Shown here piece by piece: positions 38,644-58,746 of a stretch of 64,000 nucleotides of DNA. Positions within the stretch are counted from its first letter, which is position 1, and each line of letters begins with the position of its first letter. The stretch lies in contig NZ_POAF01000006.1 of NCBI RefSeq assembly GCF_003309065.1, forward strand, positions 124,001-188,000, read 5' to 3'. Both the position numbers and the translations under genes were made by a program. The notes below the pieces were generated by a model that was not told the origin of the DNA, made no database searches, and saw nothing but the letters and a program-made list of their open reading frames with translations. Source of the stretch: Glutamicibacter soli (GTDB lineage: Bacteria; Actinomycetota; Actinomycetes; Actinomycetales; Micrococcaceae).

Positions 38644-39473
38644 GTTGCTGGCTCCTTCGCACAAGCTCGGTGTTCGTTCGGACCGGTGAACCTGGCGGTT
38701 TCGATCCGGTGAACTTCTTCGTGACAACAACTATTCCCTGCCTGCAACCCCTCCAACAGGGGAATTTCAGATTAAGATTCGCCGTTCTTCGTTTTTCTGG
38801 AAGTTTTGCACTTCTTGATGCTGATTGTGATCCAAGAGACAGAAAGTCGCGATTTTGGGTCGAAATCGGTGTCAAGAAATCACGGAATTCCTTGTCTGAA
38901 TGTCGGTGAGTGGGGTGCCTCCTTCGTTGCGGGAACTGCGACATGAAGTTGACATAGCAGGTGAGGGGCGTGCTTCGAGGCTGTATCCGGGAAACTTTTC
39001 GAGGGCTCGATGCGGATTCGGGGGCTGGCGAATTGCGCGCTTCCCATATGCCGCATGCTGTGCGCCACCTCACTGTCGCGCGAAAAGTGGAGGGGATATA
39101 TCCGCGTGTGGCCGGTCGAAGAAATGACGTTCTTTCAAAATGCTGTATTTCGCGATCGCCGGGGATTCGGGCGCAATTTCCGCGACACGGGGTTCTGGAA
39201 GCGCCGCAGGCACGCTTGGTCCTAGAAAAATGTGGTCCAACTGGCCCTTTGGGGTCGAGCAAGCGTTTGGCATAGTGACTTGAGCCACAGAAAAGATGAA
39301 ACAAGAATATACTTCTAGCCATGGCGTTTCGTTTGCGAAAAGGCGGACCGCACGCTGCGGACAGCGCGGCAGCTACACGAGCGCACAGCCAGCCACGACG
39401 ATTTCTGGGGCATTTCAACCTGCCTTCGGATGAACAAGGGCAGCACGGTCGAAAAGATGCAAGGGAGACAAAC
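38644..39473. other. 830-bp intergenic region between aceA and the MFS gene
   Basis: No convincing gene is seen; open frames here have no family features. It contains the RamB-like motif (38797-38817) and the aceA promoter region, whose exact -10/-35 I cannot settle. Near the other end a TATACT box at 39308-39313 is a possible promoter for the plus-strand MFS gene. Confidence 0.55.
38797..38817. promoter_or_regulatory. RamB-like operator upstream of aceA
   Basis: The sequence CTGGAAGTTTTGCA followed by CTTCTTG is almost the same as the element directly upstream of ramB (43697-43718). Both resemble the RamB box reported in Corynebacterium glutamicum (core ACTTTGCAAA). Confidence 0.6.
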
Positions 39474-40931: not shown

Positions 40932-40979
40932 GCTTCGCCGCCGCGCTTCACTACCGTACCCAAGAAGACCGGAGAACCC

Positions 40980-42653
40980 ATGACATCGCAGACCATCATC
41001 TATCCCGCCCGCGCGGTCCACACCATGGATCCGTCCCGTCCCGCCGCCCAAGCGGTGGCGGTGCGCGAGGGGCGCATCCGCGCCGTGGGCAGCCTCGACG
41101 AGCTGCTGGGCTACCCGGACTGCGTGGTGGACGAGCGCTACCGCCACAAGGTGATCGTCCCGGGCTTCGTTGAGGCGCACGCCCATGCAGGATCCGGCGG
41201 GATGTGGGACGGACAGGTCTACGTGGGCTACTTCGACCGGACTGACCCCCAAGGGACAGTGTGGCCCGGCTGCAGGGATGCGCAGGCGATCCTTCGCCGG
41301 CTGCGCGAGGCGCTGGAACAGCTGGAGCCGGGCGCCCCGCTGAAGGCCTGGGGGCTGGATAACATCTACTTCCCGGACACCCGGATCCTGGCCCGGGAGC
41401 TTGATTCGGTCGCCGAGGACCGGCTGGTGCAGATCACCCACGCCAATGGCCACGTCGCGGTAGTGAACAGCGCGACGCTGCGCGCCGCAGGCATCGACGG
41501 CTCCACGCAGGTTCAGGGCGTGGAGAAATACCCCGACGGCACCCCCACCGGCGAACTGCGCGAGTTCGCCGCGCTGGGACTGGTGCATGAGCTGTTCGGC
41601 GGCGGGCTGCTGGAGCTCTCGGAGAAAAGCCTGCGCAACTTCGCGCAGGACGCGGTCAACCACGGGGTCACCACCATCACCGACCTGGGCAGCATGCGCC
41701 CGCTGAGCGAGGAAGGCCGGCGCGACTACTCGGACACCGTGGACGAGCACTTCCCGGTCCGGCTGAACGTCTTCCAGTTCGGAATGGGGCTGGGCACCGG
41801 GCCGCTGGCCGAGCAGACCGCGCGGCAGCTGGCTGGGATCAGAACGCTGGGGCACGAGAAGCTGCGCTTCGGGCATGTGAAGCTGATGCTCGACGGGTCC
41901 ATCCAGGGGTTCACCGCGCGCCTGCAGGAACCGGGCTACCTGGGCACGCGCGAGAACGGCATCTGGAACACGACCCCCGAGGAATTCGAGGCGGCCTTCA
42001 GCGCCTTCCACCAGGCGGGGCTGCTCATCCACGTGCACTGCAACGGCGACCAGGCCAGCGAGCTGTTCCTCGACACGCTGGAAAAGGTGCTGACCAAGCA
42101 CCCGCGGCCGGACCACCGGCACACCATGACCCACTCGCAGCTGACCACCCAGGCGCAGTACCGCCGCGCCGCCGCGCTGGGCGCCTGCGCGAACATCTTC
42201 TCCAACCACCTGTGGTTCTGGGGAGACCAGCATGCGGACAAGATCCTCGGGATCGACAGGGCCTCGCGGATGAATGCCGCGCGCTCCGCGCTGCGTGCCG
42301 GGGTGCCGATCTCGCTGCACTGCGATACCCCGGTCACCGAGCTGAATCCGCTGCAGACCATGAAGCATGCGGTCACCCGGTTGACTCCGTCGGGCAGGGT
42401 GCTGGGCGACCACGAGCGGATCAGCGTCGAGCAGGCGCTGCACGCGGTGACGCTGGGCGCAGCCTACATGCTCAAGATGGACCACGAGGTCGGCTCCATC
42501 GAGGCCGGGAAGCGGGCCGACCTGGCCATCCTGGACGAAGACCCGTTCGAGGTCGAGCCCGAAGCGCTGGGCGGCATCCAGGTGCACGGTACGCTGCTGG
42601 GCGGGGTGCCCCAGCAGGCCCGCCACGGCGCGGCGCTGCAGGGACGGCGATGA
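40980..42653 (+). CDS. Amidohydrolase, YtcJ / N-substituted formamide deformylase-like
   Basis: A 557-residue metal-dependent hydrolase of the amidohydrolase 3 family. The metal-binding HxH lies in VIVPGFVEAHAHAGS; further ligands are in LIHVHCNGDQASE and the Asp in VPISLHCDTPVTEL. VKLMLDGSIQGFTA is typical of YtcJ-like enzymes. The C-terminus has the composite domain IEAGKRADLAILDEDPF. The substrate is unknown; relatives cleave N-substituted formamides and other amides. It overlaps the CobW-like GTPase gene by 4 nt (ATGA). The tight coupling suggests the GTPase delivers its metal. Confidence 0.9.
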   Translation: MTSQTIIYPARAVHTMDPSRPAAQAVAVREGRIRAVGSLDELLGYPDCVVDERYRHKVIVPGFVEAHAHAGSGGMWDGQVYVGYFDRTDPQGTVWPGCRDAQAILRRLREALEQLEPGAPLKAWGLDNIYFPDTRILARELDSVAEDRLVQITHANGHVAVVNSATLRAAGIDGSTQVQGVEKYPDGTPTGELREFAALGLVHELFGGGLLELSEKSLRNFAQDAVNHGVTTITDLGSMRPLSEEGRRDYSDTVDEHFPVRLNVFQFGMGLGTGPLAEQTARQLAGIRTLGHEKLRFGHVKLMLDGSIQGFTARLQEPGYLGTRENGIWNTTPEEFEAAFSAFHQAGLLIHVHCNGDQASELFLDTLEKVLTKHPRPDHRHTMTHSQLTTQAQYRRAAALGACANIFSNHLWFWGDQHADKILGIDRASRMNAARSALRAGVPISLHCDTPVTELNPLQTMKHAVTRLTPSGRVLGDHERISVEQALHAVTLGAAYMLKMDHEVGSIEAGKRADLAILDEDPFEVEPEALGGIQVHGTLLGGVPQQARHGAALQGRR

Positions 42654-43615
42654 GCAGCGCCGTCCCGCTGACGCTGCTCGGCGGCTACCTCGGGGCGGGC
42701 AAGACCACGCTGGTCAACGACCTGCTGGAACAGTCGGCGCAGCGCATCGCGGTGCTGGTCAACGACTTCGGCGCGGTGAACATCGACGCGAAACTCATCC
42801 GCACCGCCCGCTCCGATTCCGTCGAGCTGGCCAACGGGTGCCTGTGCTGTTCGCTGCGCGACAGCGTGGCCGAAACCCTGCAGCCGCTGGCCGGCCGCGG
42901 GGACTTCGACCGGGTCGTGGTGGAAGTTTCAGGGGTGGGCAACCCGGCAAAGCTCGCGCCCTGGCAGGGTTTTCCCGGGTTCGCGCCCGGGGGACTGGTG
43001 GTCTGCGCCGACGCCGGGGCGATCGGCAGGCAGCTGCGCGACGGGTTCATCGGCGACACCGTGCTGGACCAGCTGCGGGCGGCCGAACTGGTGCTGCTGT
43101 CCAAAACGGATCTGCTTCCCGAAGACCGGGCAAAACAGGCCGCGCAACTGGTGAGCCAGGCCGCCCCGCAGGCCGCGGTGCTCGCCTCGCCGCATGGCGC
43201 GGACCGCATCGCCGGTCTTGAACGCTGGCTCGGGGCGCTGCCGGACCAAGCCGGGGCGCGGGAACTGGAACCGGAGCCGACGCCGGAGCACGGCGGGAAC
43301 CACCCCTTTGCCAGCCTGGCCCTGCGCGGGACGCGGCCGGTCGACCGGGAGCGGCTGGAGCGCGCGCTGGCCGGGTGCCCGCAGGTCCTGCAGCGCGCCA
43401 AGGGCTTCCTCCGGCTCCAGGACAGCCCGCAGCGCCGCACGCTGGTGCAGTACAGCGGCTCCGGCCTGGAGCTCGAAGACTGCGGGGCCTGGTCCGGTGC
43501 ACAGGAACCGCAGCTGGTGCTGATCGCCGCCGGCGAGCGCGCCGAGGACGTGCTGGCCCAGATCGCCGCCGCGCTTCCGGAGCTGCAGGCCTCGCCGGCG
43601 GATGGAACCTCCTAA
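42650..43615 (+). CDS. CobW/COG0523 G3E-family GTPase (metal chaperone)
   Basis: A 321-residue GTPase. Walker A is LLGGYLGAGKTTLVNDLL, the family CxCC motif is ELANGCLCCSLRDS, Walker B-like VVVEVSGVGNP follows, and the guanine-specificity motif is LLSKTDLL (SKTD for NKxD). The C-terminal CobW_C domain begins near FASLALRGTRPVDRERLERAL. COG0523 proteins insert Zn, Co or Fe into target enzymes, for example nitrile hydratase activators. No His-rich loop is seen. It is translationally coupled to the amidohydrolase, which is the obvious client. Confidence 0.9.
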   Translation: MSSAVPLTLLGGYLGAGKTTLVNDLLEQSAQRIAVLVNDFGAVNIDAKLIRTARSDSVELANGCLCCSLRDSVAETLQPLAGRGDFDRVVVEVSGVGNPAKLAPWQGFPGFAPGGLVVCADAGAIGRQLRDGFIGDTVLDQLRAAELVLLSKTDLLPEDRAKQAAQLVSQAAPQAAVLASPHGADRIAGLERWLGALPDQAGARELEPEPTPEHGGNHPFASLALRGTRPVDRERLERALAGCPQVLQRAKGFLRLQDSPQRRTLVQYSGSGLELEDCGAWSGAQEPQLVLIAAGERAEDVLAQIAAALPELQASPADGTS

Positions 43616-46155: not shown

Positions 46156-47670
46156 GTGACCGTGCAGGAGGAGGGCGCCCGGACAGTCGAAACGCAGGCC
46201 TTGGCCCCGATTTCCATCGGGGAGGATTCAGCCGAGCCGCTGTACCGGCAGCTCCGCCTGGCCCTGGAGCACCAGATCCATACGGGAAGCATCGTGCCCG
46301 GCTTGGCCCTGCCCAGCTCCCGCGAGCTCTCCCGTGAACTCGGGCTCTCGCGCAACACCGTGAATGCCGCGCTGCAGGAGCTTCTCGCCTCCGGGCTGAT
46401 CGAGTCCAGGGCGCGCCGCGGATACTTCGTGAACACCCAAATGCTCTCCTCGAGGAACGTGCAGCGCGGACCGGGGAACTCGGGCGCTTCGCCCATCGAC
46501 GTGCAGCGGCACATCAAGTCCCGCGTCGGGGCCGGGCGCCCCGAGATCACCAAGATCGGCAATTGGAGGGACTACCCCTACCCATTCGTCGCCGGCCAGG
46601 TGGATGAACGGGACTTTCCCCGCTTGGCGTGGGCTCGGGCGCTTCGCGAATCACTGGACCCGCCGCATCTGCACTATTCGCTGCGCGACTCGGTGGACGA
46701 AGACGACCCGTATCTGGTGGACATGCTCTGCCAGCGGGTGCTCCCGGCGCGCGGAATCATCGCACACCCGGAAAACATCCTGATTACCGCCGGGTCGCAG
46801 CAGGGGCTGGACCTGCTGGCGCAGACGACCATGGACTCGCGCACCACCGTGGCGGTGGAGAACCCCGGCTACGTGGACGCCCGCCACACCTTCGCCCGCA
46901 CCGGCGCGCAGCTGCTGCCGCTGGAGGTGGATTCCCACGGGATGGTGCCGCCCGACTCGTTCGAGCGGATCGACACGGTGTACCTGACCCCGAGCCACCA
47001 CAGCCCGACCAACGCGACCCTGAGCGTGACCCGCCGCCGCGCAATCCTCGACGCCACCGCGCGCAGCGGCACGCTGGTCATCGAAGACGACTACGACAGC
47101 GAATTCCGCTATCGGGGCAAGCCGACGCCTGCCCTGAAGGCGCTGAAGAATTCAGGCCATGTGGTGTACCTGGGATCCTTCACCAAGTTCCTGGCCCCCG
47201 GCCTGCGCATGGGCTACTTGGTCGGCGACGCGGCGCTGATCGCTGAATTGCGCACCCAGCGCCGGTACCGGGTCAGGCATATCGCAGGGCATCCGCAACG
47301 GGCGATGGCGCTCATGATCGATTCGGGCCAATACCAGCGCACCATTTCCCGCCGCAGGACCCAGCTGCAGCGCAAGTGGGTCAGCCTGACCGACGCCCTG
47401 CACGAGCATCTGCCCTGGGAGCTGAATACGCCCCCGGGCGGGGTGAGCATCTGGATCCAGGGGCCGCCGGACCTCGACTGCCGTGAGCTGGGCGCGCGGT
47501 GCCTGGAACGCGGAGTGGTGATCGAGCGCGGGGACATCTTCTTCGACAGCCCGGAGCTGCACCGGAACCACTTCCGCCTCGGGTTCGCGGCGATCGACGT
47601 GGAATCCATCGAGCCGGGGGTGCGGATCCTGGCCGACACGATCAAGACCCTGCTCGGCCGGCAGGCGTGA
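46156..47670 (+). CDS. MocR/TauR-like regulator (GntR HTH with aminotransferase domain)
   Basis: A 504-residue MocR-family regulator. The N-terminal GntR winged helix (LRLALEHQIHTGSIVPGLAL, then SSRELSRELGLSRNTVNAAL) is joined to a fold-type I aminotransferase domain. The PLP-lysine region is VYLGSFTKFLAPGLRMGYL. MocR proteins use PLP adducts as signals. TauR of Rhodobacter, a member, activates tpa and xsc in response to taurine. Here the gene precedes alr and tpa, so it is a good TauR candidate; a D-alanine-related regulator is the alternative. The start is a GTG, 3 bp after the usp gene. Confidence 0.88.
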   Translation: MTVQEEGARTVETQALAPISIGEDSAEPLYRQLRLALEHQIHTGSIVPGLALPSSRELSRELGLSRNTVNAALQELLASGLIESRARRGYFVNTQMLSSRNVQRGPGNSGASPIDVQRHIKSRVGAGRPEITKIGNWRDYPYPFVAGQVDERDFPRLAWARALRESLDPPHLHYSLRDSVDEDDPYLVDMLCQRVLPARGIIAHPENILITAGSQQGLDLLAQTTMDSRTTVAVENPGYVDARHTFARTGAQLLPLEVDSHGMVPPDSFERIDTVYLTPSHHSPTNATLSVTRRRAILDATARSGTLVIEDDYDSEFRYRGKPTPALKALKNSGHVVYLGSFTKFLAPGLRMGYLVGDAALIAELRTQRRYRVRHIAGHPQRAMALMIDSGQYQRTISRRRTQLQRKWVSLTDALHEHLPWELNTPPGGVSIWIQGPPDLDCRELGARCLERGVVIERGDIFFDSPELHRNHFRLGFAAIDVESIEPGVRILADTIKTLLGRQA

Positions 47671-47778
47671 GCCCGCGGCGCTGGTCTTAGGAAAATCGGG
47701 GCGAACTGGGTCTGGGTGCCGTGCGGTTAATGGGTGACAGTTGGGACAATCAATCGCTACCAGGAGAAAGGCCCGACA

Positions 47779-48981
47779 ATGCCCAGTCCCACGATTTTCC
47801 TCGACTCGGCGGCCCGGATCGACACCGCGAACCCGCAGCGCAGCGCGCTGATCGACCTCGGAGCCATCAGCGGCAATGTTGAAACGCTGCGCGGGATCGC
47901 GGGCACCGCGAAGCTGATGGCGGTGCTCAAGGCCGACGGCTACGGCCACGGGCTGGTCCCGGCAGCCCGCGCGGCCCTGCGCGGGGGCGCGGACTACCTG
48001 GGCACCGCCGTCCTGGAGGAGGCCTTCGCCTTGCGCGCCGCAGGAGTCGATGCCCCGATCTTCACTTGGCTCAATGCGCCCGGGAGCAACTACCTCCGGG
48101 CCATCGAGGAAGATATCGATCTGGCAGCCTACGACTGCGCCCAGCTCGAGGAGATCTGCCACGCGGCCCGGCAGGCCGGGCGGCCCGCGCGCGTCCATCT
48201 GAAGATCGACACCGGCATGTGGCGGGGCGGGGCAAGCGCCGAGGACTGGCCCCGGCTGTGCGGCGCGGCGCGGCGCGCCCTGGACGCCGGGCTGATCGAG
48301 GCCACCGGCATCTGGTCGCACCTGGCCGCGGCCGACGAACCGGAGAACCCGTCGACCTCGATGCAGCTGGCGGCATTCCGCGCCGCGCTCGCCGTGGCCC
48401 GGGACCTCGGAATCACCCCGAGACTGCGCCACATCGCCAACTCGGCGGCCACGCTCAGCAACCCGGAAGCCCACTTCGACCTGGTGCGGCCCGGGATTTC
48501 CGTCTACGGCATCAACCCGCTGCCGCCCGAATACCGCACCTCCCGGATGGACCTGCGCCCGGCCATGACCCTGCGCGCGGCCGTCGCGCATGTGAAAGCC
48601 GCCCCCGCCGGCGCCGCGGTGAGCTACGGGGGAACTGAACGCGCGGCGGCCGCCACCCAGCTGGCCATCATCCCCCTCGGGTACGCCGACGGGGTGATGC
48701 GCAGCGCCAGCAGCAAGGGACCGGTGCAGATCGGCGCCGGGAGGTACCGGGTGATCGGGCGCGTGTGCATGGACCAGTTCATGGTCCAGGTCGGTTCGGA
48801 CGCCGTGGTGCCGGGCCAGCAGGCCCTGCTTTTCGGGCCGGGAACCGACGGGGAGCCGCACCTGGACCAGTGGGCCCAGGCCGCGGACACGATCCCGTAC
48901 GAAATCCTGACCCGCATCGGAACTCGGGTGCCCAGGATCTATCTCGAGTCGATTCCCGCCCCGGACGTTTCTGGTACCTAA
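47779..48981 (+). CDS. alr: Alanine racemase
   Basis: A 400-residue PLP-dependent alanine racemase. The PLP lysine motif is KLMAVLKADGYGHGLVPAAR near residue 50; the catalytic Tyr region is VRPGISVYGINPLPPEY, followed by IPLGYADGVMR and GRVCMDQFMVQV. The ATG at 47779 has AGGAG upstream and begins close to the conserved part. It lies between the MocR regulator and the taurine aminotransferase. Tpa makes L-alanine, so this racemase may feed alanine to a D-alanine oxidising route, or it may be a second or housekeeping cell-wall Alr. Confidence 0.95.
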   Translation: MPSPTIFLDSAARIDTANPQRSALIDLGAISGNVETLRGIAGTAKLMAVLKADGYGHGLVPAARAALRGGADYLGTAVLEEAFALRAAGVDAPIFTWLNAPGSNYLRAIEEDIDLAAYDCAQLEEICHAARQAGRPARVHLKIDTGMWRGGASAEDWPRLCGAARRALDAGLIEATGIWSHLAAADEPENPSTSMQLAAFRAALAVARDLGITPRLRHIANSAATLSNPEAHFDLVRPGISVYGINPLPPEYRTSRMDLRPAMTLRAAVAHVKAAPAGAAVSYGGTERAAAATQLAIIPLGYADGVMRSASSKGPVQIGAGRYRVIGRVCMDQFMVQVGSDAVVPGQQALLFGPGTDGEPHLDQWAQAADTIPYEILTRIGTRVPRIYLESIPAPDVSGT

Positions 48982-49078: not shown

Positions 49079-50473
49079 ATGACGACTTCAGATATCCGCA
49101 CGCGGGCACAGCGCCACCTTTACCCGCACTTCACGACGGGGCAGGTCTGGAACAGCGACCAGCTGCCGATCATCGTGCGCGGCGAGGGCAGCTACCTGTT
49201 CGACGAAGACGGCACCAAGTTCCTCGACGGACTGGCAGGCCTCTTCTGTGCGAATATCGGGCACGGGCGCCAGGACATCCCCAAGGCCGCCTACGAGCAG
49301 ATGTCCAAGCTGGCCTACTGGACCAACTGGGGCTCGGCCCATCCGGCAGCCGTCGAGGCAGCCACCGCCATCGCCAACCTGGCTCCGGGCGACCTGGAGA
49401 CGGTGTTTTTCGTCAACTCGGGCTCCGAGGCGGTGGAGTCGGCCATCAAGTTCGCCCGCCAGTACCACCGAGGCCAAGGCCAGCCTCAGCGCACCAAGAT
49501 CATCGCCCGGAACATGGCCTACCACGGCACCACCCTCGGCGCCCTGGCGGTCACCGGCATTCCGGCCTACAAGGAGCCCTTCGGCACCCTGATGCCAGGA
49601 GTTTTCCACGTGCCGAACACCCTGGGTGAGAGCATCCCGGAGGGCGGCAGCGCAGCCGACCTGCCCTCGGTGCAGGCCATCCGCGAACTGATCGAGCGCG
49701 AAGGCGCGGAGACCATCGCCGCCCTGTTCGCCGAGCCGGTGCAGAACTCCCGCGGCGCACTGGTGCCGCCGGCCGGCTACTGGCAGGAACTGCGCGCCAT
49801 CTGCGACAAGCACGGCATCCTGCTGGTCGCCGACGAAGTCATCACCGGTTTCGGACGCCTGGGCGAGTGGTTCGGCAGCATCAAGTTCGACGTGGTCCCG
49901 GACCTGATCACCTTCGCCAAGGGCTCCACCTCCGGCTACGCCCCGCTGGGCGGCGTGATCATCCGCAAGCCGCTGGCCGATGCCATGCTGGCCAGCGAGC
50001 AGGCAGGCATCTTCACCCACGGCGCCACCTGGGGCGGGCACCCGGTATCCACCGCGGTGGCGGTCGCCAACCTGCAGGCGCTGGCGGAAGAGAACATCAC
50101 CGGCAACGTGCGCAGCCTCGAACCCTACTTCCAGAACGGCCTGGACAAGCTCGTGGCGGCCCATTCAAGCATCAAGGAATACCGGGGCGCAGGCTTCTTC
50201 TACGCCATCGAATTGATGGGCGACCGGAACAGCGGCCGGGAACTGAGCGCCGACGAGTCCAAGGCGCTGCTCACGCAGGTCATGCCGCAGGCCATGCGCG
50301 AGGTCAACCTGATCACCCGCCCGGACAACCGCGGAGCCACCATGCTCGTGCTCTCGCCGCCGCTGGTGGCCGACCAGGACGTGCTGGACGACCTGCTGGG
50401 CAAGGTGGACCACGTGATGAGCGCGGCCGATTCCTACCTCCGCCTCGGCGCACCGTCCCTGGCGCGGGCCTAA
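49079..50473 (+). CDS. tpa: Taurine:pyruvate aminotransferase (class III)
   Basis: A 464-residue class III PLP aminotransferase. VFFVNSGSEAVESAIKFARQYH binds the PLP phosphate, ILLVADEVITGFGRLGEWF holds the PLP-nitrogen Asp, and the Schiff-base Lys is in DLITFAKGSTSGYAPLGG. On sequence alone it is an omega-amino acid:pyruvate aminotransferase; the pta and xsc genes nearby make taurine the best substrate (taurine + pyruvate to sulfoacetaldehyde + L-alanine). AAAGGAGG lies 7 nt before the ATG, one of the strongest ribosome binding sites in the window. pta starts 17 bp downstream. Confidence 0.88.
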   Translation: MTTSDIRTRAQRHLYPHFTTGQVWNSDQLPIIVRGEGSYLFDEDGTKFLDGLAGLFCANIGHGRQDIPKAAYEQMSKLAYWTNWGSAHPAAVEAATAIANLAPGDLETVFFVNSGSEAVESAIKFARQYHRGQGQPQRTKIIARNMAYHGTTLGALAVTGIPAYKEPFGTLMPGVFHVPNTLGESIPEGGSAADLPSVQAIRELIEREGAETIAALFAEPVQNSRGALVPPAGYWQELRAICDKHGILLVADEVITGFGRLGEWFGSIKFDVVPDLITFAKGSTSGYAPLGGVIIRKPLADAMLASEQAGIFTHGATWGGHPVSTAVAVANLQALAEENITGNVRSLEPYFQNGLDKLVAAHSSIKEYRGAGFFYAIELMGDRNSGRELSADESKALLTQVMPQAMREVNLITRPDNRGATMLVLSPPLVADQDVLDDLLGKVDHVMSAADSYLRLGAPSLARA

Positions 50474-50490
50474 GGGCGGAAGGGCACACC

Positions 50491-51531
50491 ATGCTGTTGG
50501 CCAGCGCGGTGCCGCAGCACGCGGACATCGACCCCATGCTGCATGAACGCTTTGCCCGGGTTCGCGCAGGCGGCGGCGCACAGCGCATCATCTTGCCGGA
50601 GGGCGACGATGCGCGGGTGCGCCAGGCCGCGGACATCCTGCGGTCGCTGGGCGCCGAACCCCGGCTACTGGGGGGAAGCTCGTCCGGCGCCGCCAGACAG
50701 GACCTTGTGCAGCTGCGCAGCTCTGCGGTGCTGGAGCATCTGGAGCGCGCGCTTGGCGCCCGCGGGCCGGAGGCCCTGCCCGAAGCGCTGGAGGATCCGC
50801 TGGCGGTCTCGATGGCGGCGGTGGCGGCAGGCGAGGCGCAGGCAGTGGTCGCCGGCGCCACCTGCCCCACCTCGCAGGTCATGCGGATGGCCTTCCGGGT
50901 CGTTGGCCCGTCAACCCCCGGCGGCACCGTCTCCTCCAGCTTCCTGATGCGTTTGTCATCGGGGGAGTACCAGTGCTTCGGCGACTGCGCGGTGATCCCC
51001 GATCCGACGGTGGAGCAGCTGGCGCAGATCGCCATCGCCACGGCAGATAGCTTCCGCGCCCTGACCGGCGGGGAACCGCGGGTCGCGATGCTGTCCTTCT
51101 CCACCGCAGGCAGCGCGGAACACGCCAGCGTGTCGGTAGTCCGCGAGGCCACAGCCAGGGTGCGCGCTCTGCGTCCCGGGCTGTGCATCGACGGGGAGCT
51201 GCAATTCGACGCCGCGGCCGACCAGCTGGTGGCTGCGGCCAAGGCTCCGGACTCGGCCGTCGCAGGACGGGCCAACGTCTATATCTTCCCCAACCTGGCG
51301 GCCGGAAACATCGGGTACAAAATCACCCAACGGCTCGCGGGCGCGCAGGCCTACGGCCCCATCCTCCAGGGGTTGGCCGCGCCGGTGAATGACTTGTCCC
51401 GCGGGGCGAGTGTTAGCGACATAGTCAATGTCTCCCTTATTTCCTTGGTGCAGGCGGCAGCCTACAACCCCCCTGGCGGCGAAACTCGTCGCGAGAGCGG
51501 CCCGCACCACCAACGAGCGAGGTTCTCATGA
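50491..51531 (+). CDS. pta: Phosphate acetyltransferase
   Basis: A 346-residue short-form phosphotransacetylase (PTA_PTB domain only). Signatures are IILPEGDDARVRQAADIL at the N-terminus, AQAVVAGATCPTSQVMRMAF in the middle and NVYIFPNLAAGNIGYKITQR near the end. It converts acetyl phosphate and CoA to acetyl-CoA. In Xsc-based taurine catabolism a Pta is the standard last step, which fits its place between tpa and the permease. No ackA is adjacent, consistent with a catabolic rather than overflow role. Its stop overlaps the permease ATG by 4 nt (ATGA). Confidence 0.93.
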   Translation: MLLASAVPQHADIDPMLHERFARVRAGGGAQRIILPEGDDARVRQAADILRSLGAEPRLLGGSSSGAARQDLVQLRSSAVLEHLERALGARGPEALPEALEDPLAVSMAAVAAGEAQAVVAGATCPTSQVMRMAFRVVGPSTPGGTVSSSFLMRLSSGEYQCFGDCAVIPDPTVEQLAQIAIATADSFRALTGGEPRVAMLSFSTAGSAEHASVSVVREATARVRALRPGLCIDGELQFDAAADQLVAAAKAPDSAVAGRANVYIFPNLAAGNIGYKITQRLAGAQAYGPILQGLAAPVNDLSRGASVSDIVNVSLISLVQAAAYNPPGGETRRESGPHHQRARFS

Positions 51532-53093
51532 AGGTGACAACACCACAAGGCAGCAACCAGGCGGCAACACCCCAGTCTTCGGGAGGTGCCGGCATGCCCG
51601 GCACGGCCCCGGGCAGTGAACAGCCCGAACGTCTTGCCAAGACGCTGAAGGCGCGCTGGGTCTGGGCCATTGCCCTGGGCTCCGCGGTCGGCTGGGGCGC
51701 ATTCATCCTGCCGACCGACTGGCTCGCGGTCGGCGGGCCGGTCGGGGCGATCAGCGGATTCATGATCGGCGGCGCGCTGATGGTCCTGATCGCGGTCAGC
51801 TACGGTTTCCTGATCAAGTCATTCCCCGTGTCCGGCGGCGAGCTGGCCTTCGCACTGGTCGGCTTCGGCCGGACGCACGCCTACTTCTGCGGTTGGTACC
51901 TGACGCTGGGCTATACGTGCATCGTGGCGCTGAACGCCTCGGCCATGGCCTTGCTCTTCCGCAAGCTGATGCCCGATCTCGTCCAGCAGGGATACCTGTA
52001 TACGGTGGCCGGCTGGGACGTCTACATCGTTGAAGTGGTCATTTCAATGACCGTGCTCGTCGTGTTCGCATTGCTCAACATCCGCGGCACCGCGCTCTCG
52101 GGGCGCATCCAGTTCATCGCCTGCGTGATCATGCTGATTGCCGTGGCCTGCATCCTGGTGGGTGTGCTGATCAGCCCGCAGACGGTGCTGTCCAACGCCA
52201 CCCCCGCCTTCCCTGCGGGTGTGAACCCGGTGGCAGCCATTGCGGCGATCGTGGCCATCGCGCCGTGGGCCTTCATCGGCTTCGACAACGTGCCCCAGGC
52301 GGCCGAGGAATTCGACTTCCCGCCGGCCAAGGCCATGCGCTTGATCGTCCTGGCGCTGCTGGCAGCGGCCGTGCTGTACTGCGCAATGATCGCCTCGGTG
52401 GCATTCAGCGCACCATGGGAAGCCCTCGCCAACGGCGACTCGGCCTGGGGCAGCGCTGATGCGCTGACCGGCGTCATGGGCGGAATCGGCATGCTGCTGC
52501 TGAGCATCGGCATCACGATGGGCGTGAGCACCGGCTTGAACGGATTCTATGTATCCGCCAGCCGCATCCTGCTTGGGATGGGCCGTGCGCAAATGGTTCC
52601 CGCGATCTTCGCCCGGCTGCATCCCAAATACAAGACCCCGCACTACGGCGTGCTCTTCGTCGCAGCGGTCTGCCTGATCAGCCCCTGGTTCGGCCGTGCG
52701 GCACTGACCTGGGTCGTGGACATGTCGGCGGTCGGCGTGACCGTCGCCTACCTCTACACCTGCCTGTGCGCGTTCAAGCTCTTCCGAACCACGAATTCCA
52801 AGCGCGGCCAGAGCGAGCTCGGGGACGTGAACTCGACGTCCAAGAAGGTGCTGAGCCTGCTGGGAGCCATCACGGCGCTGACGTTCATGGCGTTGCTGCT
52901 GATCCCGGGATCCCCTGGCGCGTTGGGCAAGGAATCGATGATCGCACTGGTGGTCTGGACCCTGCTGGGAGTGATCTTCTTCCTGGTGCGTCGCAAGCAC
53001 AACAAGACGCTGAGCGATGAACAGGTCGACATGCTGGTGCTGGGCGCTCCGCGGCCAAAGGGCACCGAATTGCGCCAGCGTTCCAGGAGCTAG
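51528..53093 (+). CDS. APC-superfamily permease, candidate taurine uptake system
   Basis: A 521-residue permease with about 12 membrane spans after a 40-residue hydrophilic N-terminus. The first span region KARWVWAIALGSAVGWGAFILPTDW and FPVSGGELAFALVGFGR follow the APC pattern, and WAFIGFDNVPQAAEEFDFPP resembles the substrate region of polyamine/amino acid carriers. It is translationally coupled to pta and is the only transporter in the island, so taurine or another organosulfonate is the likely substrate. This is inference; known taurine importers are mostly ABC or TRAP systems. Confidence 0.85.
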   Translation: MKVTTPQGSNQAATPQSSGGAGMPGTAPGSEQPERLAKTLKARWVWAIALGSAVGWGAFILPTDWLAVGGPVGAISGFMIGGALMVLIAVSYGFLIKSFPVSGGELAFALVGFGRTHAYFCGWYLTLGYTCIVALNASAMALLFRKLMPDLVQQGYLYTVAGWDVYIVEVVISMTVLVVFALLNIRGTALSGRIQFIACVIMLIAVACILVGVLISPQTVLSNATPAFPAGVNPVAAIAAIVAIAPWAFIGFDNVPQAAEEFDFPPAKAMRLIVLALLAAAVLYCAMIASVAFSAPWEALANGDSAWGSADALTGVMGGIGMLLLSIGITMGVSTGLNGFYVSASRILLGMGRAQMVPAIFARLHPKYKTPHYGVLFVAAVCLISPWFGRAALTWVVDMSAVGVTVAYLYTCLCAFKLFRTTNSKRGQSELGDVNSTSKKVLSLLGAITALTFMALLLIPGSPGALGKESMIALVVWTLLGVIFFLVRRKHNKTLSDEQVDMLVLGAPRPKGTELRQRSRS

Positions 53094-53162: not shown

Positions 53163-54866
53163 TCAGCGGATGCGGAGCATACGCTGCAGCAGCTGCAGGA
53201 ATTCGCGAATGCCCTGGGCGGTGGCCAACTGCCCGGTGTCCAAGGTGGTGCTGCAGTCGCCGAAGTAGTTGCTCATGTCCAATCCGACTCCGAGCGCGCC
53301 CACGTCGAGCCCGGTGCCTCGCGCGGCCCAGACGGCGTTGACCAGGTCGTGCTGGAGATATGACTCACCGTTGGCATTGCCGGTGGCGGCGTCCGACGGG
53401 CTGCCGTCCGACAGGACAATGAGCAATCGGCGCTCGGCAGGGGACTGGCCGAGCCGCTCAGCGGCCCAGCGAACAGCTTCCCCGTCGATCCCTTCCTTGT
53501 AGCGGGGCTGATGCAGCAGCGCCCCCAGGGAGAGCCGGCTGTTCCGCCAGCTTTGCTCCTCGGTCTTGAACACCAGGTGGGCCAGTTCGTTGAGGCGGCC
53601 GGGGTTCGGCTCAGCGCCTTGCTTGCGCCATGCAGCCAGCGCGCGGCCGCCGTTCCAGTTCCCGGTGGTGTATCCGAGGACTTCGCTGGGCACGTCGCAG
53701 CGCTCAAGGGCGCGCAGCAACAGGTGCAGGAACGCGGCGACCTGCGGCGCGTGATGGCGCATGGAACCCGAACAGTCCACCAGGAAACTCACTGCGGCGT
53801 ACGGCGCCGAGCAGTGCTGGTCTTCGAGGAAGATGCGCCGTTCCTGCGGCATGGCGACAAGCTGGGCCAGCCGTGAGCCATCGAGCAATCCCTGCTCCGC
53901 GCCACCGCAGCGCCCATCGACATCCGGCTGGCAGAGCAGGGCCCGAAGCTGTCGGGACAGCAGCGGCTGGTTGACCCCGGACCGCGCGGCGATGTCGTCG
54001 ACGGTCTGGCGGTATTTTTCGAGTTGCGCACGGCGTATGGATTGGGCGGCAGGTATCTGCCGGTCGAAAGCCGTGGTGAAAATCCGGTAGTTTCCGGGGT
54101 CCGCCGCGCTGGCGCCGCCGTCGGACAAGGCCGCCTTGCCATAGTGCTGGGCTTCGTTGGCGACATCAAGATGCAGGGTAAATCCGCGCACGTCCTTTGC
54201 CGAGCGTGCAGGGGGTTGAGACCGGCCTCGTGCCGCCCGCCGTGCGGAAATATCCGCGTCAACCAGCGAGGCGATTTCCTGCGCTATTAATGCATAGGCC
54301 TGCTGGTCATGGCGGATCGCGCGCAAATTGGAAATGGCTGCGCCGAGCCCGGGAGGGAAGGCGGCCCTGGTCGTCTCGATGCGGTCGCCGATGTCGGTGG
54401 GCAGTTCGACCCCGTTGACCTTGGCGTGGGCGAGAACGCATACGGCCCAGAGCAACTGGCCCAGATCGGTTTCCGCCAGCGTCGACCCGTGAAACTGCCA
54501 GGCCCAGTGCCAGAAAGTGTGCCTGAGATTTGCCTTGACTCCCGGCAGGGAACACAGGGATTCGCAGCGCAGCTGTTCGAGCAGTTCAAAGATGAAGCGT
54601 CCGCCGTCGGATTCCGGCAGGCGGCTTTGATGGCATTCCAAGGACGAGTGCCTGGTGCGCAGCGCAAGCCCGTCACTGGCCCCGCGCGCCAGACGGATAT
54701 CGCTGCCGTCGAGTCTCGGGTACAGGTGCCCTGCGTTATACGGAAGCGGCAAGCCATGCTTCCACGCAGTTCCGCCGCGAAGCTCCAGCTGCGGCTCGGA
54801 GCTGACCGCGCGCAGGCTCGCGGCCTGCAGCCGCCGAAGCAGCTCCGTGCCCTGTGCGGCGCCCAT
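53163..54866 (-). CDS. CobT-like VWA-domain protein of the taurine island
   Basis: A 567-residue protein with the layout of cobaltochelatase CobT: a long N-terminal region, a middle FDRQIPAAQSIRRAQLEKY block and a C-terminal von Willebrand A domain. The MIDAS motif is VSFLVDCSGSMRHH (DxSxS); CobT-type sequences LGYTTGNWNGGRALAAW and NELAHLVFKTEEQSWR follow, then KEGIDGEAVRWAAERL and LLIVLSDGSPSD. CobT works with the AAA+ CobS and the chelatase CobN in aerobic B12 synthesis. Neither cobN nor other cob genes are nearby. The ATG follows the cobS-like stop directly (TAGATG). Function here is probably not cobalt insertion. Confidence 0.85.
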   Translation of the reverse strand: MGAAQGTELLRRLQAASLRAVSSEPQLELRGGTAWKHGLPLPYNAGHLYPRLDGSDIRLARGASDGLALRTRHSSLECHQSRLPESDGGRFIFELLEQLRCESLCSLPGVKANLRHTFWHWAWQFHGSTLAETDLGQLLWAVCVLAHAKVNGVELPTDIGDRIETTRAAFPPGLGAAISNLRAIRHDQQAYALIAQEIASLVDADISARRAARGRSQPPARSAKDVRGFTLHLDVANEAQHYGKAALSDGGASAADPGNYRIFTTAFDRQIPAAQSIRRAQLEKYRQTVDDIAARSGVNQPLLSRQLRALLCQPDVDGRCGGAEQGLLDGSRLAQLVAMPQERRIFLEDQHCSAPYAAVSFLVDCSGSMRHHAPQVAAFLHLLLRALERCDVPSEVLGYTTGNWNGGRALAAWRKQGAEPNPGRLNELAHLVFKTEEQSWRNSRLSLGALLHQPRYKEGIDGEAVRWAAERLGQSPAERRLLIVLSDGSPSDAATGNANGESYLQHDLVNAVWAARGTGLDVGALGVGLDMSNYFGDCSTTLDTGQLATAQGIREFLQLLQRMLRIR

Positions 54867-55883
54867 CTAGGCCACCAAATCAGAAGAATCCAGGGATTCG
54901 GCAAGATCCACGTCGAAGCAGCGCTGGTAGTACTCGGCCAGCAGCGGGCGCTCGGCATCATCGCATTTGTTCAAGAACGACAGCCTGAAGGCGAGTGCCG
55001 GGTCCTGGAAGATTTCGATGTTCTGCGCCCAGGTGATCACCGTACGCGGCGACATCAGCGTGGAGAGGTCTCCTGCCGCGAATCCTTGGCGGGTTAAGGC
55101 CGCCAGCTCGATCATGCGTTCAATGAGCGTCCTGCCGGCGTTTCGGGCTGCCAGATGCGGGACACGCGATGCGACGATGTCCAGTTCCTGCTCGGCCGGC
55201 AGGTAATTCAAACTGGCCACGACATTCCAGCGGTCGAGCTGGGCATGGTTCAGGCGCTGCACGCCGTGGTAGAGACCCGTAAGATTGCCCAGTCCCACGG
55301 TATTGGCAGTGGCAAAAAGCCGGAAGTCGGGATGCGGCCGGATGACCCTGTTCTGATCGGGGAGAACCAAAGCACCATCTTGTTCCAGCAGGCGTTGGAT
55401 CACGAACATGACATCAGGTCGTCCCGCGTCGTATTCGTCCAGGATCAGCGCCATCGGCTGGCTCATGGCCCAGGGCAGGACGCCTTCTTGGAAGACTGTC
55501 ATCGGCTGGCCGTCGCGCAGGACGACTGCATCTTTTCCCACCAGGTCCAGTCGGCTCAGCTGCCCGTCGAGGTTCACCCGCATCACCGGCCACCGCAGCC
55601 GGGCCGCGACCTGCTCAATGTGGGTCGACTTGCCGGTTCCATGCATGCCTTGGACCAGAACGCGGGATTTGTGCGTGAAGCCGGCCAGGATGGCGAGGGT
55701 AGTTGACTTGTCGAATTGATATGAAGCGTCCAGCGTCGGGACCTGCGCCGTGGCGCGGGTAAAACGGCTCACCGTCAGGTTGCTGTCGATCCCGAAAAGC
55801 CCTCGGACGTTGACGTTTTCCCTGTCCGGTGCGTTTTCCTCGGCGACCGCTTGAGGGATTTCGGTAGTTTCCGGGACGTTCAT
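54867..55883 (-). CDS. CobS-like AAA+ ATPase of the taurine island
   Basis: A MoxR-type AAA+ ATPase of about 338 residues, very similar in pattern to CobS. The N-terminus has LFGIDSNLTVSRFTRA; Walker A is VLVQGMHGTGKSTHIEQVAA, Walker B is ALILDEYDAGRPDVMFVIQR, sensor 1 is LFATANTVGLG, and the C-terminal CobS block FRLSFLNKCDDAERPLLAEYYQRCFD is present. It forms a unit with the CobT-like VWA protein, as MoxR/VWA pairs do in enzyme maturation. Two ATG codons are possible: 55895 overlaps the iclR end, while 55883 (chosen) has GGTGAG upstream. Co-transcribed with iclR. Confidence 0.88.
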   Translation of the reverse strand: MNVPETTEIPQAVAEENAPDRENVNVRGLFGIDSNLTVSRFTRATAQVPTLDASYQFDKSTTLAILAGFTHKSRVLVQGMHGTGKSTHIEQVAARLRWPVMRVNLDGQLSRLDLVGKDAVVLRDGQPMTVFQEGVLPWAMSQPMALILDEYDAGRPDVMFVIQRLLEQDGALVLPDQNRVIRPHPDFRLFATANTVGLGNLTGLYHGVQRLNHAQLDRWNVVASLNYLPAEQELDIVASRVPHLAARNAGRTLIERMIELAALTRQGFAAGDLSTLMSPRTVITWAQNIEIFQDPALAFRLSFLNKCDDAERPLLAEYYQRCFDVDLAESLDSSDLVA

Positions 55884-55888
55884 GGGGC

Positions 55889-56716
55889 TCACCATCCTGA
55901 TGCTTGGAGTTCGGAGTTGTCGGTCAGGTCTTCGATACGGGCAATGTCCGCGGCGGCGCGCTGCATCAGGGGAAGGAGGCCTTCGAGATCAGCTGCGCTC
56001 TTGCGCATGATCGGGGCTTGCACCGCAACACACATATTCGATCGTCCCGATGCATTGGGGACGAGCACTGCGAGGCACACCAGTCCGTCGAGGTATTCCT
56101 GCTGATCCAGCGCGTAGCCTTGCTGGCGGATCCGTGCGAGTTCGAATTCCAGTGCGGGGTAGTCGGTGAGCGTGTGGGCGGTGAAGCGGGTGAGCCGATC
56201 GTTGTTCAGCAGCCTTTCGCGCTGCGCGGTTCCGAACTGCGAAACAATCAACTTGCCGCTGGCAGAGCAATGCGCCGGAACCCTGGAACCCGGGCCCAGG
56301 TGGACGCGAATCGGTTCGGTCGTCTCCACGCGGTCCAGATAGATGACCTCGTTCCCGGACAGCGCCGTGACATTGCAGCTTTCGCCGATCTGGGCCACGA
56401 GGTCTTTCAGGATGGCGTTGCGCGCCCCGTTGCGGGTGTCGTTGAGAAGAGTATCCTCGGCAAGCCGGCGCATGCGCGAGCCTGTTGCGTAATGCCGGCC
56501 GTCGCTGTGCCGGGTCAAAAGGTTGGAACTTTCCAGCTGTTGCAGCATGCGGTGCAACGTGGGTTTGGGAATGCCGGTTTGGTCGACGAGTGACTGCAGG
56601 GTGAACAGCTGGTCGCGGGTGGTGATGAGTTCCAAAAGCGCGATCATTCGCAGAGCTGGCGTTTCACCTTGTACTGCTCCGCTGGGGCCCAAGGAGGGTT
56701 CGGTGAGGTTTTCCAT
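55889..56716 (-). CDS. IclR-family transcriptional regulator
   Basis: A 275-residue IclR regulator. The N-terminal winged helix is ALRMIALLELITTRDQLFTL, then DQTGIPKPTLHRMLQQLE; the C-terminal effector domain has VPAHCSASGKLIVSQFG and QGYALDQQEYLDGLVCLAV. It is divergent from xsc and leads the operon iclR-cobS-cobT. Inverted repeats in the 56717-56904 region are candidate operators. It likely controls both xsc and its own operon in response to a taurine metabolite. The ATG has AGGAG 8 nt upstream. Confidence 0.93.
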   Translation of the reverse strand: MENLTEPSLGPSGAVQGETPALRMIALLELITTRDQLFTLQSLVDQTGIPKPTLHRMLQQLESSNLLTRHSDGRHYATGSRMRRLAEDTLLNDTRNGARNAILKDLVAQIGESCNVTALSGNEVIYLDRVETTEPIRVHLGPGSRVPAHCSASGKLIVSQFGTAQRERLLNNDRLTRFTAHTLTDYPALEFELARIRQQGYALDQQEYLDGLVCLAVLVPNASGRSNMCVAVQAPIMRKSAADLEGLLPLMQRAAADIARIEDLTDNSELQASGW

Positions 56717-56738
56717 TAGTTAGCTCCTAGCCTTGCGA

Positions 56739-56765
56739 GTTTCATTAAATATTAGCATTTGAAAC
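56739..56765. promoter_or_regulatory. Inverted repeat upstream of iclR
   Basis: GTTTCA (56739-56744) and TGAAAC (56760-56765) are separated by 15 bp of A/T-rich sequence. It lies 23-49 bp before the iclR start, in its promoter region, and is a candidate operator for autoregulation. Confidence 0.45.
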
Positions 56766-56782
56766 AAAAAGCTGAACAGGGG

Positions 56783-56839
56783 TTGACGAATGTGACCCGC
56801 GACGCATAGTTTTGATCTCAATCCCACTTTTTGTGGAAT
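56783..56839 (+). promoter_or_regulatory. xsc promoter with downstream inverted repeat
   Basis: A -35 TTGACG (56783-56788), a 16-bp spacer and -10 CATAGT (56805-56810) form a reasonable sigma-70 promoter. About 10 bp after the -10 box is an inverted repeat ATCCCAC-TTTTT-GTGGAAT (56821-56839, one G-T mismatch) that a repressor such as the IclR protein could bind to block transcription. Confidence 0.5.
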
Positions 56840-56904
56840 ATGCAGGCAAAAAATGAGACACAATCAAATGGCTCCTTAGGGGTCCGATGTCCGAAGGGGG
56901 CAAC

Positions 56905-58746
56905 ATGTCCGAGCAGATCATCGAATCAGCAAACGCCGAGGTTCAGAACTCGGTGGCCAAACGCGAAGCGGTCAAGGGCGCGCAGAAAATGACCTCGTCC
57001 GAGGCTTTTGTTGAAACGCTGGTTGCCAATGACGTCACCGATATCTTCGGAATCATGGGATCAGCCTTCATGGATGCCATGGACATCTTCGCTCCGGCAG
57101 GCATCCGCCTGGTTCCCGTGGTGCATGAACAGGGTGCAGCGCACATGGCCGACGGTTATGCCCGCGCTTCCGGCCGCCACGGTGTGGTGATCGGGCAGAA
57201 CGGCCCGGGCATCTCCAACTGCGTGACCGGAATTGCCGCAGCATTCTGGGCCCACAGCCCGGTTGTCATCGTCACTCCGGAAGCCGGCACCAACACCATC
57301 GGCCTAGGCGGATTCCAGGAGGCAAACCAGCTGCCGATGTTCCAGGAGTTCACCAAGTACCAGGGGCATGTCACCCATCCGCATCGCATGGCTGAATACA
57401 CCGCACGCTGCTTCGACCGCGCCATGAGCGAGATCGGCCCGACGCAGCTGAACATTCCTCGCGATTACTTCTACAGCGAGAGTGTCACCGAGATTCCGGC
57501 GCCGCGTCGTGTGGACCGCGGCGCCGGTGGAACCAAGTCCCTGGATGAAGCGGTGCAGCTGCTGGCCGAGGCCAAGTTCCCCGTGATCATTTCCGGCGGC
57601 GGCATCGTCATGGCAGACGGCGTCGAAGAGTGCAAGGCCCTAGCCGAACGCCTGGGCGCCCCCGTGGTCAACAGCTACCAGCACAACGACTCCTTCCCTG
57701 CGAGCCACCCGCTGTGGGCTGGCCCGCTGGGCTACCAGGGCTCCAAGGCAGGCATGAGCCTGATTGCCCAGGCGGACGTGGTTCTGGCCTTGGGCACCCG
57801 GCTTGGCCCATTCGGTACCCTGCCGCAGTACGGACAGGAATACTGGCCGAAGAACGCCAAGATCATCCAGGTGGACGCCGACCACAAGATGCTTGGACTG
57901 GTCAAGAAGATCTCCGTGGGTATCTGCGGCGACGCCAAGGCAGTGGCCACCGAGCTGGTTGCACGACTGAAGAACCAGGCGTTGGCCTCGGACGCCACCA
58001 AGGCCGAGCGCGCGGCGACGATCCAGGACGCCAAGCAGTCGTGGGAAGCGGAACTTGATAACTGGACCCATGAAAAGGACGACTACTCCCTGGACGTCAT
58101 CGAGGAGGCGGAGCAGGAAGAAGGCAACTGGCTGCACCCTCGTCAGGTATTGCGCGAGCTGGAAAAGGCCATGCCTCGCGACGTGATGGTGTCCACCGAT
58201 ATCGGCAACATCAACTCGGTAGCCCACAGCTACCTGCGGTTCGAACGTCCGCGCAGTTTCTTCGCACCGATGTCCTTCGGCAATTGCGGTTACGCGTTGC
58301 CGACCATCATCGGCGCCAAGGCCGCGGCTCCGGAGCGCCCTGCAATCGCCTACGCAGGTGACGGAGCTTGGGCCATGAGCATGGGCGAGGTGCTCACCGC
58401 GGTACGCCATGACATCCCGGTGACTGCCATCGTGTTCCGCAACCGCCAGTGGGGCGCCGAGAAGAAGAACCAGGTCGAGTTCTACGGACGCCGTTTCGTG
58501 GCAGGCGAACTGGACAACGGCGAGAGCTTTGCAGAAATGGCACGCAGCATGGGTGCCGAGGGTGTTGTTGTCGACAAGCTGGAAGACGTAGGTCCTGCGC
58601 TGCAGGCAGCCATCGACGCGCAGATGGTCGACGGCAAGACCACGGTTATCGAAATCATGTGCACCCGCGAGCTGGGCGATCCGTTCCGCCGCGATGCGCT
58701 CTCCACCCCGGTCCGCCACCTTGAGAAGTACCAGGACTACGTATAA
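56905..58746 (+). CDS. xsc: Sulfoacetaldehyde acetyltransferase
   Basis: A 613-residue thiamine-diphosphate enzyme cleaving sulfoacetaldehyde with phosphate to acetyl phosphate and sulfite. Features: N-terminal Pyr domain with the catalytic Glu in PVVHEQGAAHMADGYARASG and IGQNGPGISNCVTGIAAAFW; the Xsc hallmark IGLGGFQEANQLPMFQEFTKYQ; and the ThDP motif AYAGDGAWAMSMGEVLTAVR, then VFRNRQWGAEKKNQ. There is an extra N-terminal segment of about 30 residues compared with typical Xsc. Starts at 56887 (AGGGG) and 56905 (AAGGGGG) are both plausible. It forms a single-gene unit with its own promoter and terminator, divergent from iclR-cobS-cobT. Confidence 0.95.
   Translation: MSEQIIESANAEVQNSVAKREAVKGAQKMTSSEAFVETLVANDVTDIFGIMGSAFMDAMDIFAPAGIRLVPVVHEQGAAHMADGYARASGRHGVVIGQNGPGISNCVTGIAAAFWAHSPVVIVTPEAGTNTIGLGGFQEANQLPMFQEFTKYQGHVTHPHRMAEYTARCFDRAMSEIGPTQLNIPRDYFYSESVTEIPAPRRVDRGAGGTKSLDEAVQLLAEAKFPVIISGGGIVMADGVEECKALAERLGAPVVNSYQHNDSFPASHPLWAGPLGYQGSKAGMSLIAQADVVLALGTRLGPFGTLPQYGQEYWPKNAKIIQVDADHKMLGLVKKISVGICGDAKAVATELVARLKNQALASDATKAERAATIQDAKQSWEAELDNWTHEKDDYSLDVIEEAEQEEGNWLHPRQVLRELEKAMPRDVMVSTDIGNINSVAHSYLRFERPRSFFAPMSFGNCGYALPTIIGAKAAAPERPAIAYAGDGAWAMSMGEVLTAVRHDIPVTAIVFRNRQWGAEKKNQVEFYGRRFVAGELDNGESFAEMARSMGAEGVVVDKLEDVGPALQAAIDAQMVDGKTTVIEIMCTRELGDPFRRDALSTPVRHLEKYQDYV

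Follow-up and report, generated by a model that had tools for sequence, protein, structure and literature searches.

The window analysed here, a 64,000-nucleotide stretch of Glutamicibacter soli DNA (contig NZ_POAF01000006.1, positions 124,001 to 188,000), carries a gene pair encoding a CobS-like AAA+ ATPase and a CobT-like VWA protein next to xsc, the gene for sulfoacetaldehyde acetyltransferase (Xsc). Such pairs belong to a CobST-like family that is real, widespread and tied to one type of Xsc, and this link is strong. The family is very probably dedicated to the Xsc pathway, Xsc itself is likely to be the direct client that the pair would touch, and we lean, a shade less firmly, towards the pair serving Xsc as a remodelling machine. 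The features concerned are as follows.

53163..54866, minus strand: CobT-like VWA protein, 567 residues (Pfam, MIDAS residues, model and fold search)
54867..55895, minus strand: CobS-like AAA+ ATPase, 342 residues, with a second ATG at 55883 (Pfam, NCBIfam)
55889..56716, minus strand: IclR-type regulator, overlapping the start of the CobS-like gene (profile matches)
56717..56886: intergenic region separating the divergent iclR and xsc genes, where both promoters presumably lie
56887..58746, plus strand: xsc, 619 residues, the proposed client and a true Xsc (1039.5 bits against an NCBIfam equivalog cut-off of 676.4)
58702..58743, plus strand: codons of the 14-residue C-terminal tail of Xsc, STPVRHLEKYQDYV, a putative contact site of the pair

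Characteristics of the CobS/CobT-like pair

An earlier note on this DNA had described a CobS/CobT-like pair joined by TAGATG, following an IclR gene and divergent from xsc, and all of this was confirmed in the sequence. Both open reading frames (ORFs) are intact, with the TAG of one directly followed by the ATG of the other. The end of the CobT-like gene at 53163 was also confirmed, but the CobS-like frame reaches 55895, and 55883, given before as its start, is the second ATG. A chance arrangement was ruled out because the same arrangement recurs in other genomes.

The CobT-like protein matched Pfam CobT_C (121.7 bits) and CobT (69.9 bits), both above cut-off, and the CobS-like protein matched AAA_5 (46.5 bits) above cut-off, with CobS_N at 21.9 bits against a cut-off of 22.2. 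With the NCBIfam models, the CobS-like protein scored 462.5 bits, below the equivalog cut-off of 558.55, and the CobT-like protein 223.9 bits, far below that of 759.05, indicating that the two are relatives and not equivalog-level members of CobS and CobT. Both proteins retain the family-invariant residues, those of the motor and of the metal ion-dependent adhesion site (MIDAS) included, and the MIDAS residues D364, S366, S368, T400/T401 and D487 of the CobT-like protein were invariant among 21 linked sequences. The layout that marks MoxR-type AAA+/VWA pairs, an AAA+ gene followed by a VWA gene with a complete MIDAS, was thus present.

The closest solved structures by sequence were CobS (430.8 bits) for the CobS-like and CobT (216.4 bits) for the CobT-like protein. 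A fold search with the modelled VWA domain of the CobT-like protein gave NorD of NorQD as the best match (E 1.2e-9), followed by the MIDAS domains of Rea1 and MDN1. The linker before the VWA domain had a median of 60 residues with 25% D/E in linked CobT-like proteins, compared to 100 residues and 37% in CobT. At 10 further sites in the relatives, CobS gave weak matches (26-31% identity), which were regarded as general AAA+ proteins and set aside.

Linkage of the pair to xsc

A search for cobS-cobT beside xsc in other genomes, suggested in the earlier note, gave strong co-occurrence in relatives, named genomes, Pseudomonadota and plasmids. In a sample of 78 genomes (the host with its 77 relatives), five had a close CobS (E no higher than 1.3e-134), the same five had a true Xsc above cut-off, and the genes were adjacent; the probability of this coincidence was 4.7e-8 with kinship ignored. 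All four relatives keep the order IclR gene, cobS, cobT and a divergent xsc, even at locus L019, whose island is otherwise rearranged.

The named-genome scan covered one genome per species across 84,980 species, and the best 80 of 589 confirmed relatives were analysed, a sample that therefore favours near relatives. The 35 linked loci comprise 30 of these 80, the window and the four relatives, and the remaining 50 loci served as the others. Of the 35 linked loci, 29 carry Xsc with more than 70% identity within the stretch fetched, at a median distance of 1107 bp from the pair and 7063 bp at most (28 measured linked loci). At L023 the contig edge falls inside xsc, where just the last 32 residues are present, and at L036 and L030 Xsc lies some 9 and 19 kb past the pair. 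No Xsc was found in the stretches examined of the other 50 loci, mostly Alphaproteobacteria by title.

Among 398 Pseudomonadota, 27 had Xsc at E 1e-190, all above cut-off. Seven of them carry the window type of Xsc (about 78% identity), and all seven have a linked CobS, which adjoins xsc in five genomes and lies 22 and 29 kb from it in the other two. In the remaining 20, Xsc shows 46-49% identity and the CobS, which scores above the true-CobS cut-off, is not in the stretch fetched around xsc; a linked CobS was observed in none of the 20. Seven of 378 plasmid records with a CobT match covered at least 80% of the query, and every one of the seven has a window-type Xsc in its 19-kb stretch. Plasmid records with Xsc above 60% identity numbered 10, namely those seven and three Rhodococcus records of plasmid pDK3.

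On pBPHY01 of Paraburkholderia phymatum (L166), two xsc copies flank a CobST-like pair. CobT-like matches also occurred on 185 Escherichia and 144 Acinetobacter plasmid records; the Acinetobacter matches listed are weak (28-29% identity over 46%), and lie on plasmids of about 110 kb. These Escherichia and Acinetobacter matches represent a further CobST-like family.

A broader rule, that every Xsc needs some CobS, was considered and rejected. It was prompted by the 27 of 27 Pseudomonadota above and by the class of G303 (assumed to be Alphaproteobacteria), where 34 of 289 genomes had Xsc at E 1e-150, 32 of them above cut-off, and CobS occurred in all 34 compared to 222 of the 289 overall (P 6.7e-5, kinship ignored). 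In the host's phylum, six of 396 genomes have Xsc, and of these six CobS was found in the host only, so that five Xsc genomes without CobS break the rule; the coincidence in the other two samples may reflect kinship.

The earlier note had proposed a re-purposed remodelling pair for Xsc, the aminotransferase Tpa, the permease or an unseen enzyme of sulfonate metabolism. The remodelling pair is supported and, within the list, the evidence favours Xsc, but "re-purposed" presumes that a B12 role came first, and the trees are unrooted. Neighbour clusters in the 35 linked loci were Xsc (29), IclR (19), DAO oxidoreductase (13), MocR (12), Pta (12, and a second Pta cluster in 4), GMC oxidoreductase (8), subunits of tripartite ATP-independent periplasmic (TRAP) transporters (5-6) and the window's aminotransferase type (5). 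While xsc is kept, the loci differ in their aminotransferase, in DAO and GMC oxidoreductases and in their transporters, which makes Xsc the likeliest client.

Phylogeny of CobS and co-divergence

The tree built from 90 CobS sequences (quick method, unrooted, as is the Xsc tree) has one branch, with a Shimodaira-Hasegawa approximate likelihood-ratio support of 100, that parts 40 linked rows from the 50 others. The linked candidates numbered 41 (the 35 loci and six more), one linked locus being dropped by the length filter, and the labels of L023, L024, L028, L030, L036, L041, L146 and L147 were assigned manually ahead of tree building. The host CobS lies outside the ordinary CobS of the sample, which is where the comparison with true CobS, proposed at the outset, could have placed it.

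The linked side holds Actinomycetota (the host, its relatives and Prauserella) and, from a second phylum, Burkholderiaceae, Comamonadaceae, Alcaligenaceae, Oxalobacteraceae, Rhodocyclaceae, Zoogloeaceae, Pseudomonadaceae, Oceanospirillaceae, Halomonadaceae and Aeromonadaceae. This taxon range points to the pair and xsc having spread together. Distance correlations over 25 rows were r 0.92 for CobS-CobT, 0.54 for Xsc-CobS and 0.60 for Xsc-CobT.

CobN in genomes with the pair

The absence of cobN noted for the window was confirmed for the whole host assembly (3.84 Mb, 25 contigs, given as 100% complete), in which no CobN family match was found, other B12 genes not being searched for. A CobN elsewhere in the host without its own cobS/cobT, the outcome that would have spoken for a chelatase role, therefore did not appear. 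CobN was likewise not found in the four relatives carrying the pair, and in the 29 named genomes with the pair it was present in 17 and not found in 12. At E 1e-60, each of these 33 genomes (29 named and four relatives) has a single CobS, the linked one, so the 17 CobN-bearing genomes are without a second CobS; none of the 33 linked CobS scored above the equivalog cut-off.

Four CobN loci were inspected. In Paraburkholderia L162, the clear case among them, ChlI-like AAA and VWA genes come after cobN and could work with CobN. No ChlI-like AAA/VWA pair was found among the ORFs scanned at L163 or by motif inspection at L164, and at L165 a VWA-type motif occurs in an ORF near cobN and no ChlI-like/VWA pair was found.

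CobS above cut-off without CobN is widespread in its own right, being observed in 7 of the 34 Xsc genomes of G303's class, some assemblies of which may be incomplete. Caulobacter vibrioides, a control genome, likewise gave a CobS match and no CobN match. Such cases represent an orphan housekeeping CobST.

The C-terminal tail of Xsc

All 34 measured pair-linked Xsc proteins have exactly 14 residues after PFRRDA[L/M] and end in KYxD[YF]x. The narrower form KY[KR]D[YF][VT] fits 32 of these tails, the exceptions being KYQDYV in the window and KYKDYC in L048. Among 34 unlinked Xsc, the terminal KYxD[YF] was found in none and a 14-residue tail in three. Five rows without the anchor are omitted from this count (L042, pair-linked, whose frame ended oddly, and the unlinked L129, L130, L131 and L132), and both groups include near-copies such as L038/L039, L102/L103 and L110/L111. 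On the seven plasmids, all eight further linked Xsc copies end in KYKD[YF]V.

In the model of the window Xsc (23 sequences, mean predicted local distance difference test score of 75), residues 607-619 scored below 50, and on account of this low model confidence the tail is probably flexible. Excerpts of PMC4660213 describe a comparable case, in which rubiscos served by CbbQO carry a C-terminal HK/R motif not found in other rubiscos, removal of one or two C-terminal residues or addition of one abolishes activation by CbbQO, and an acidic rubisco surface residue is bound via the MIDAS site. The analogy is suggestive of the Xsc tail as a contact handle. A rule that a KYxD[YF] tail means a pair is at least unproven, as Rhodococcus pDK3 has the tail and no pair nearby.

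Observations that weigh against Xsc as the client

The genetic tie to one client enzyme that is typical of MoxR-type pairs was observed with exceptions, namely G1019, pDK3 and L024/L028/L041, and these have to be set against the reading above. L024, L028 and L041 have the pair and no Xsc in 40, 60 and 60 kb of further DNA, respectively. Genome G1019 (given as 98% complete) has a window-type Xsc (76%) and no CobS at E 1e-20. Its Xsc nests within the clade of pair-linked Xsc (32 pair rows plus G1019; support of 99 at the fork, and 90 for its placement beside the host group), and for this reason the pair was probably lost there, or xsc moved alone. On Rhodococcus pDK3, xsc encodes a KYKDYV tail, and no CobS/CobT match was found within 15 and 12 kb in two of the three records, the chromosome not being searched.

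Many Xsc of other types also occur without a dedicated pair, indicating that Xsc catalysis as such needs none, and to our knowledge Xsc of this general kind has been purified in active form with no partner mentioned. The tie between the pair and Xsc is a genomic one, from which physical contact is inferred. The tail may be plain inheritance within one Xsc clade, and for this reason, together with pDK3, the evidence from the tail is suggestive only.

Proposed mechanism and alternative explanations

In the mechanism that we propose, a CobS-like ring would hydrolyse ATP and carry the CobT-like protein, whose MIDAS site would grip an acidic residue of Xsc, with the flexible C-terminal tail (KYxD[YF]x) as a second contact. 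ATP-driven pulling would then open the active site of Xsc and release a dead-end or damaged adduct of thiamine diphosphate (ThDP); contact, transmission of force and adduct release are inferred. Sulfite attacks and cleaves thiamine, and since Xsc makes sulfite beside ThDP, its cofactor could be damaged into a dead-end ligand needing expulsion, from which a need for reactivation would arise. Reactivation, as opposed to first loading of Xsc, is the mode that we favour, as a tentative proposal that may well prove wrong. ThiG was found near xsc in 4 of 46 loci with window-type Xsc, compared to 0 of 39 where Xsc is of another kind and 0 of 84 that lack Xsc, in four lineages:

L021:5586-6407: ThiG (thiazole synthase) near xsc
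L025:7336-8079: ThiG near xsc
L064:6989-7771: ThiG near xsc
L173:3130-3906: ThiG near xsc

ThiS lies beside xsc in L025 and on pDK3. It gives a slight hint that the supply of ThDP matters at these loci.

The linkage evidence would fit equally well with a one-time maturation, in which the pair opens apo-Xsc for insertion of Mg-ThDP or another metal, in the way that NorQD inserts iron into nitric oxide reductase. The modelled VWA domain has its best match in NorD, and MoxR/VWA pairs are described in excerpts of PMC13036017 as aiding target remodelling and metal insertion. We nevertheless consider maturation unlikely, given that Xsc of other types occurs in genomes without any CobS. Other ThDP enzymes are known to load Mg-ThDP unaided. 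A different client, such as phosphate acetyltransferase, a transporter, an enzyme that oxidises taurine or isethionate, a protein of sulfite handling or some unseen metalloenzyme, seems slightly less probable again: the pair is directly beside or near TRAP transporter genes in L024, L028, L036 and L048, and three linked loci lack Xsc in the DNA examined, but none of these candidates approaches Xsc in the neighbour counts given above, in which the 29 loci with Xsc compare with 13 for DAO, the commonest of them.

That the pair is simply the cobaltochelatase CobST of B12 synthesis is very improbable, and this reading was rejected. It has in its favour the same domain architecture, the solved CobS and CobT structures as nearest matches, and the 17 named genomes in which CobN occurs with no second CobS. 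The absence of CobN from the host, its four relatives and 12 of the 29 named genomes, the sub-cut-off scores of all linked CobS and their separate side of the tree argue against it, as do the ChlI-like AAA and VWA genes that accompany cobN at one of the four CobN loci, L162.

Comparison with known AAA+/VWA systems

The window pair resembles CobNST in having AAA+ and VWA proteins in the same gene order, with best matches among solved structures to that system, but it differs in the lack of CobN in the host, in scores below both equivalog cut-offs, in its own side of the tree, in a shorter and less acidic linker and in adjoining xsc. CbbQ-CbbO, the rubisco activase, is likewise an AAA+/VWA pair tied to one enzyme, whose clients bear a C-terminal motif at a fixed position (PMC4660213, in excerpt). 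It belongs to another AAA+ subfamily (the window protein scored 43.9 bits with CbbQ compared to 430.8 with CobS) and its client is rubisco, while activation of Xsc would be the counterpart here. NorQ-NorD shares the tie to one enzyme and, through the NorD VWA domain, the best fold match, but inserts iron into a membrane nitric oxide reductase (PMC13036017, in excerpt), whereas Xsc is a ThDP enzyme. The ChlI/ChlD-type motors of Mg-chelatase, including the ChlI-like/VWA genes of L162, also combine AAA+ and VWA partners; those of L162 lie with cobN and not with xsc.

Other genes of the taurine island

The island reads, in order, MocR-type regulator, alanine racemase, aminotransferase, phosphate acetyltransferase and permease, then on the opposite strand the cobT-like, cobS-like and iclR genes, with xsc divergent.

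46156..47670, plus strand: MocR-type (GntR-aminotransferase) regulator, TauR-like by context (profile matches)
47734-48981: alanine racemase, between the MocR-type regulator and the aminotransferase
49079..50473, plus strand: class III aminotransferase, by context a putative taurine:pyruvate aminotransferase (profile matches)
50488..51531, plus strand: phosphate acetyltransferase, the step after Xsc (PTA_PTB, 289.1 bits)
51528..53093, plus strand: amino acid/polyamine-type permease, by context a candidate for taurine uptake (profile match)

An alanine racemase gene was also found in L016. Upstream of the taurine genes (39321-43615), an MFS transporter, an Amidohydro_3 protein and a COG0523/CobW-type GTPase are encoded, the last two by overlapping genes; these two are perhaps an acyl-taurine-type hydrolase and its metal chaperone, and relatives of them were also observed near the pair in L018, L031, L035, L046 and L170. 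The gene names tauXY and iseJ occur in excerpts of PMC4334477 and could be applied to genes of these loci.

Implications

No paper on a role of such a pair in taurine breakdown was found in the open-access library searched, in agreement with the earlier note, whose author knew of no established role; much of the older taurine biochemistry is believed to be in subscription journals. We know of no earlier AAA+/VWA activase of a thiamine-dependent enzyme, and the pair beside xsc would be the first. A wider view, speculative and on balance doubtful, is that CobS-CobT is at root a general enzyme-remodelling chassis and not a cobalt-insertion device, one branch of which became the private activase of a thiamine-dependent enzyme whose C-terminal handle is pulled to expel sulfite-damaged or dead-end ThDP. 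Alphaproteobacterial housekeeping CobST may also serve its own type of Xsc, as 34 of 34 Xsc genomes have CobS and in 7 of the 34 no CobN was found.

Xsc catalyses the desulfonation step through which many aerobic bacteria use taurine and isethionate as carbon sources. Should one large branch of Xsc depend on an ATP-driven partner, descriptions of sulfonate breakdown miss a component, transfer of pair-type Xsc into other hosts may fail for want of that partner, and genes annotated as "cobalt chelatase", as in a Caballeronia record, would be misnamed. The fixed tail of Xsc makes the idea of an activase directly testable.

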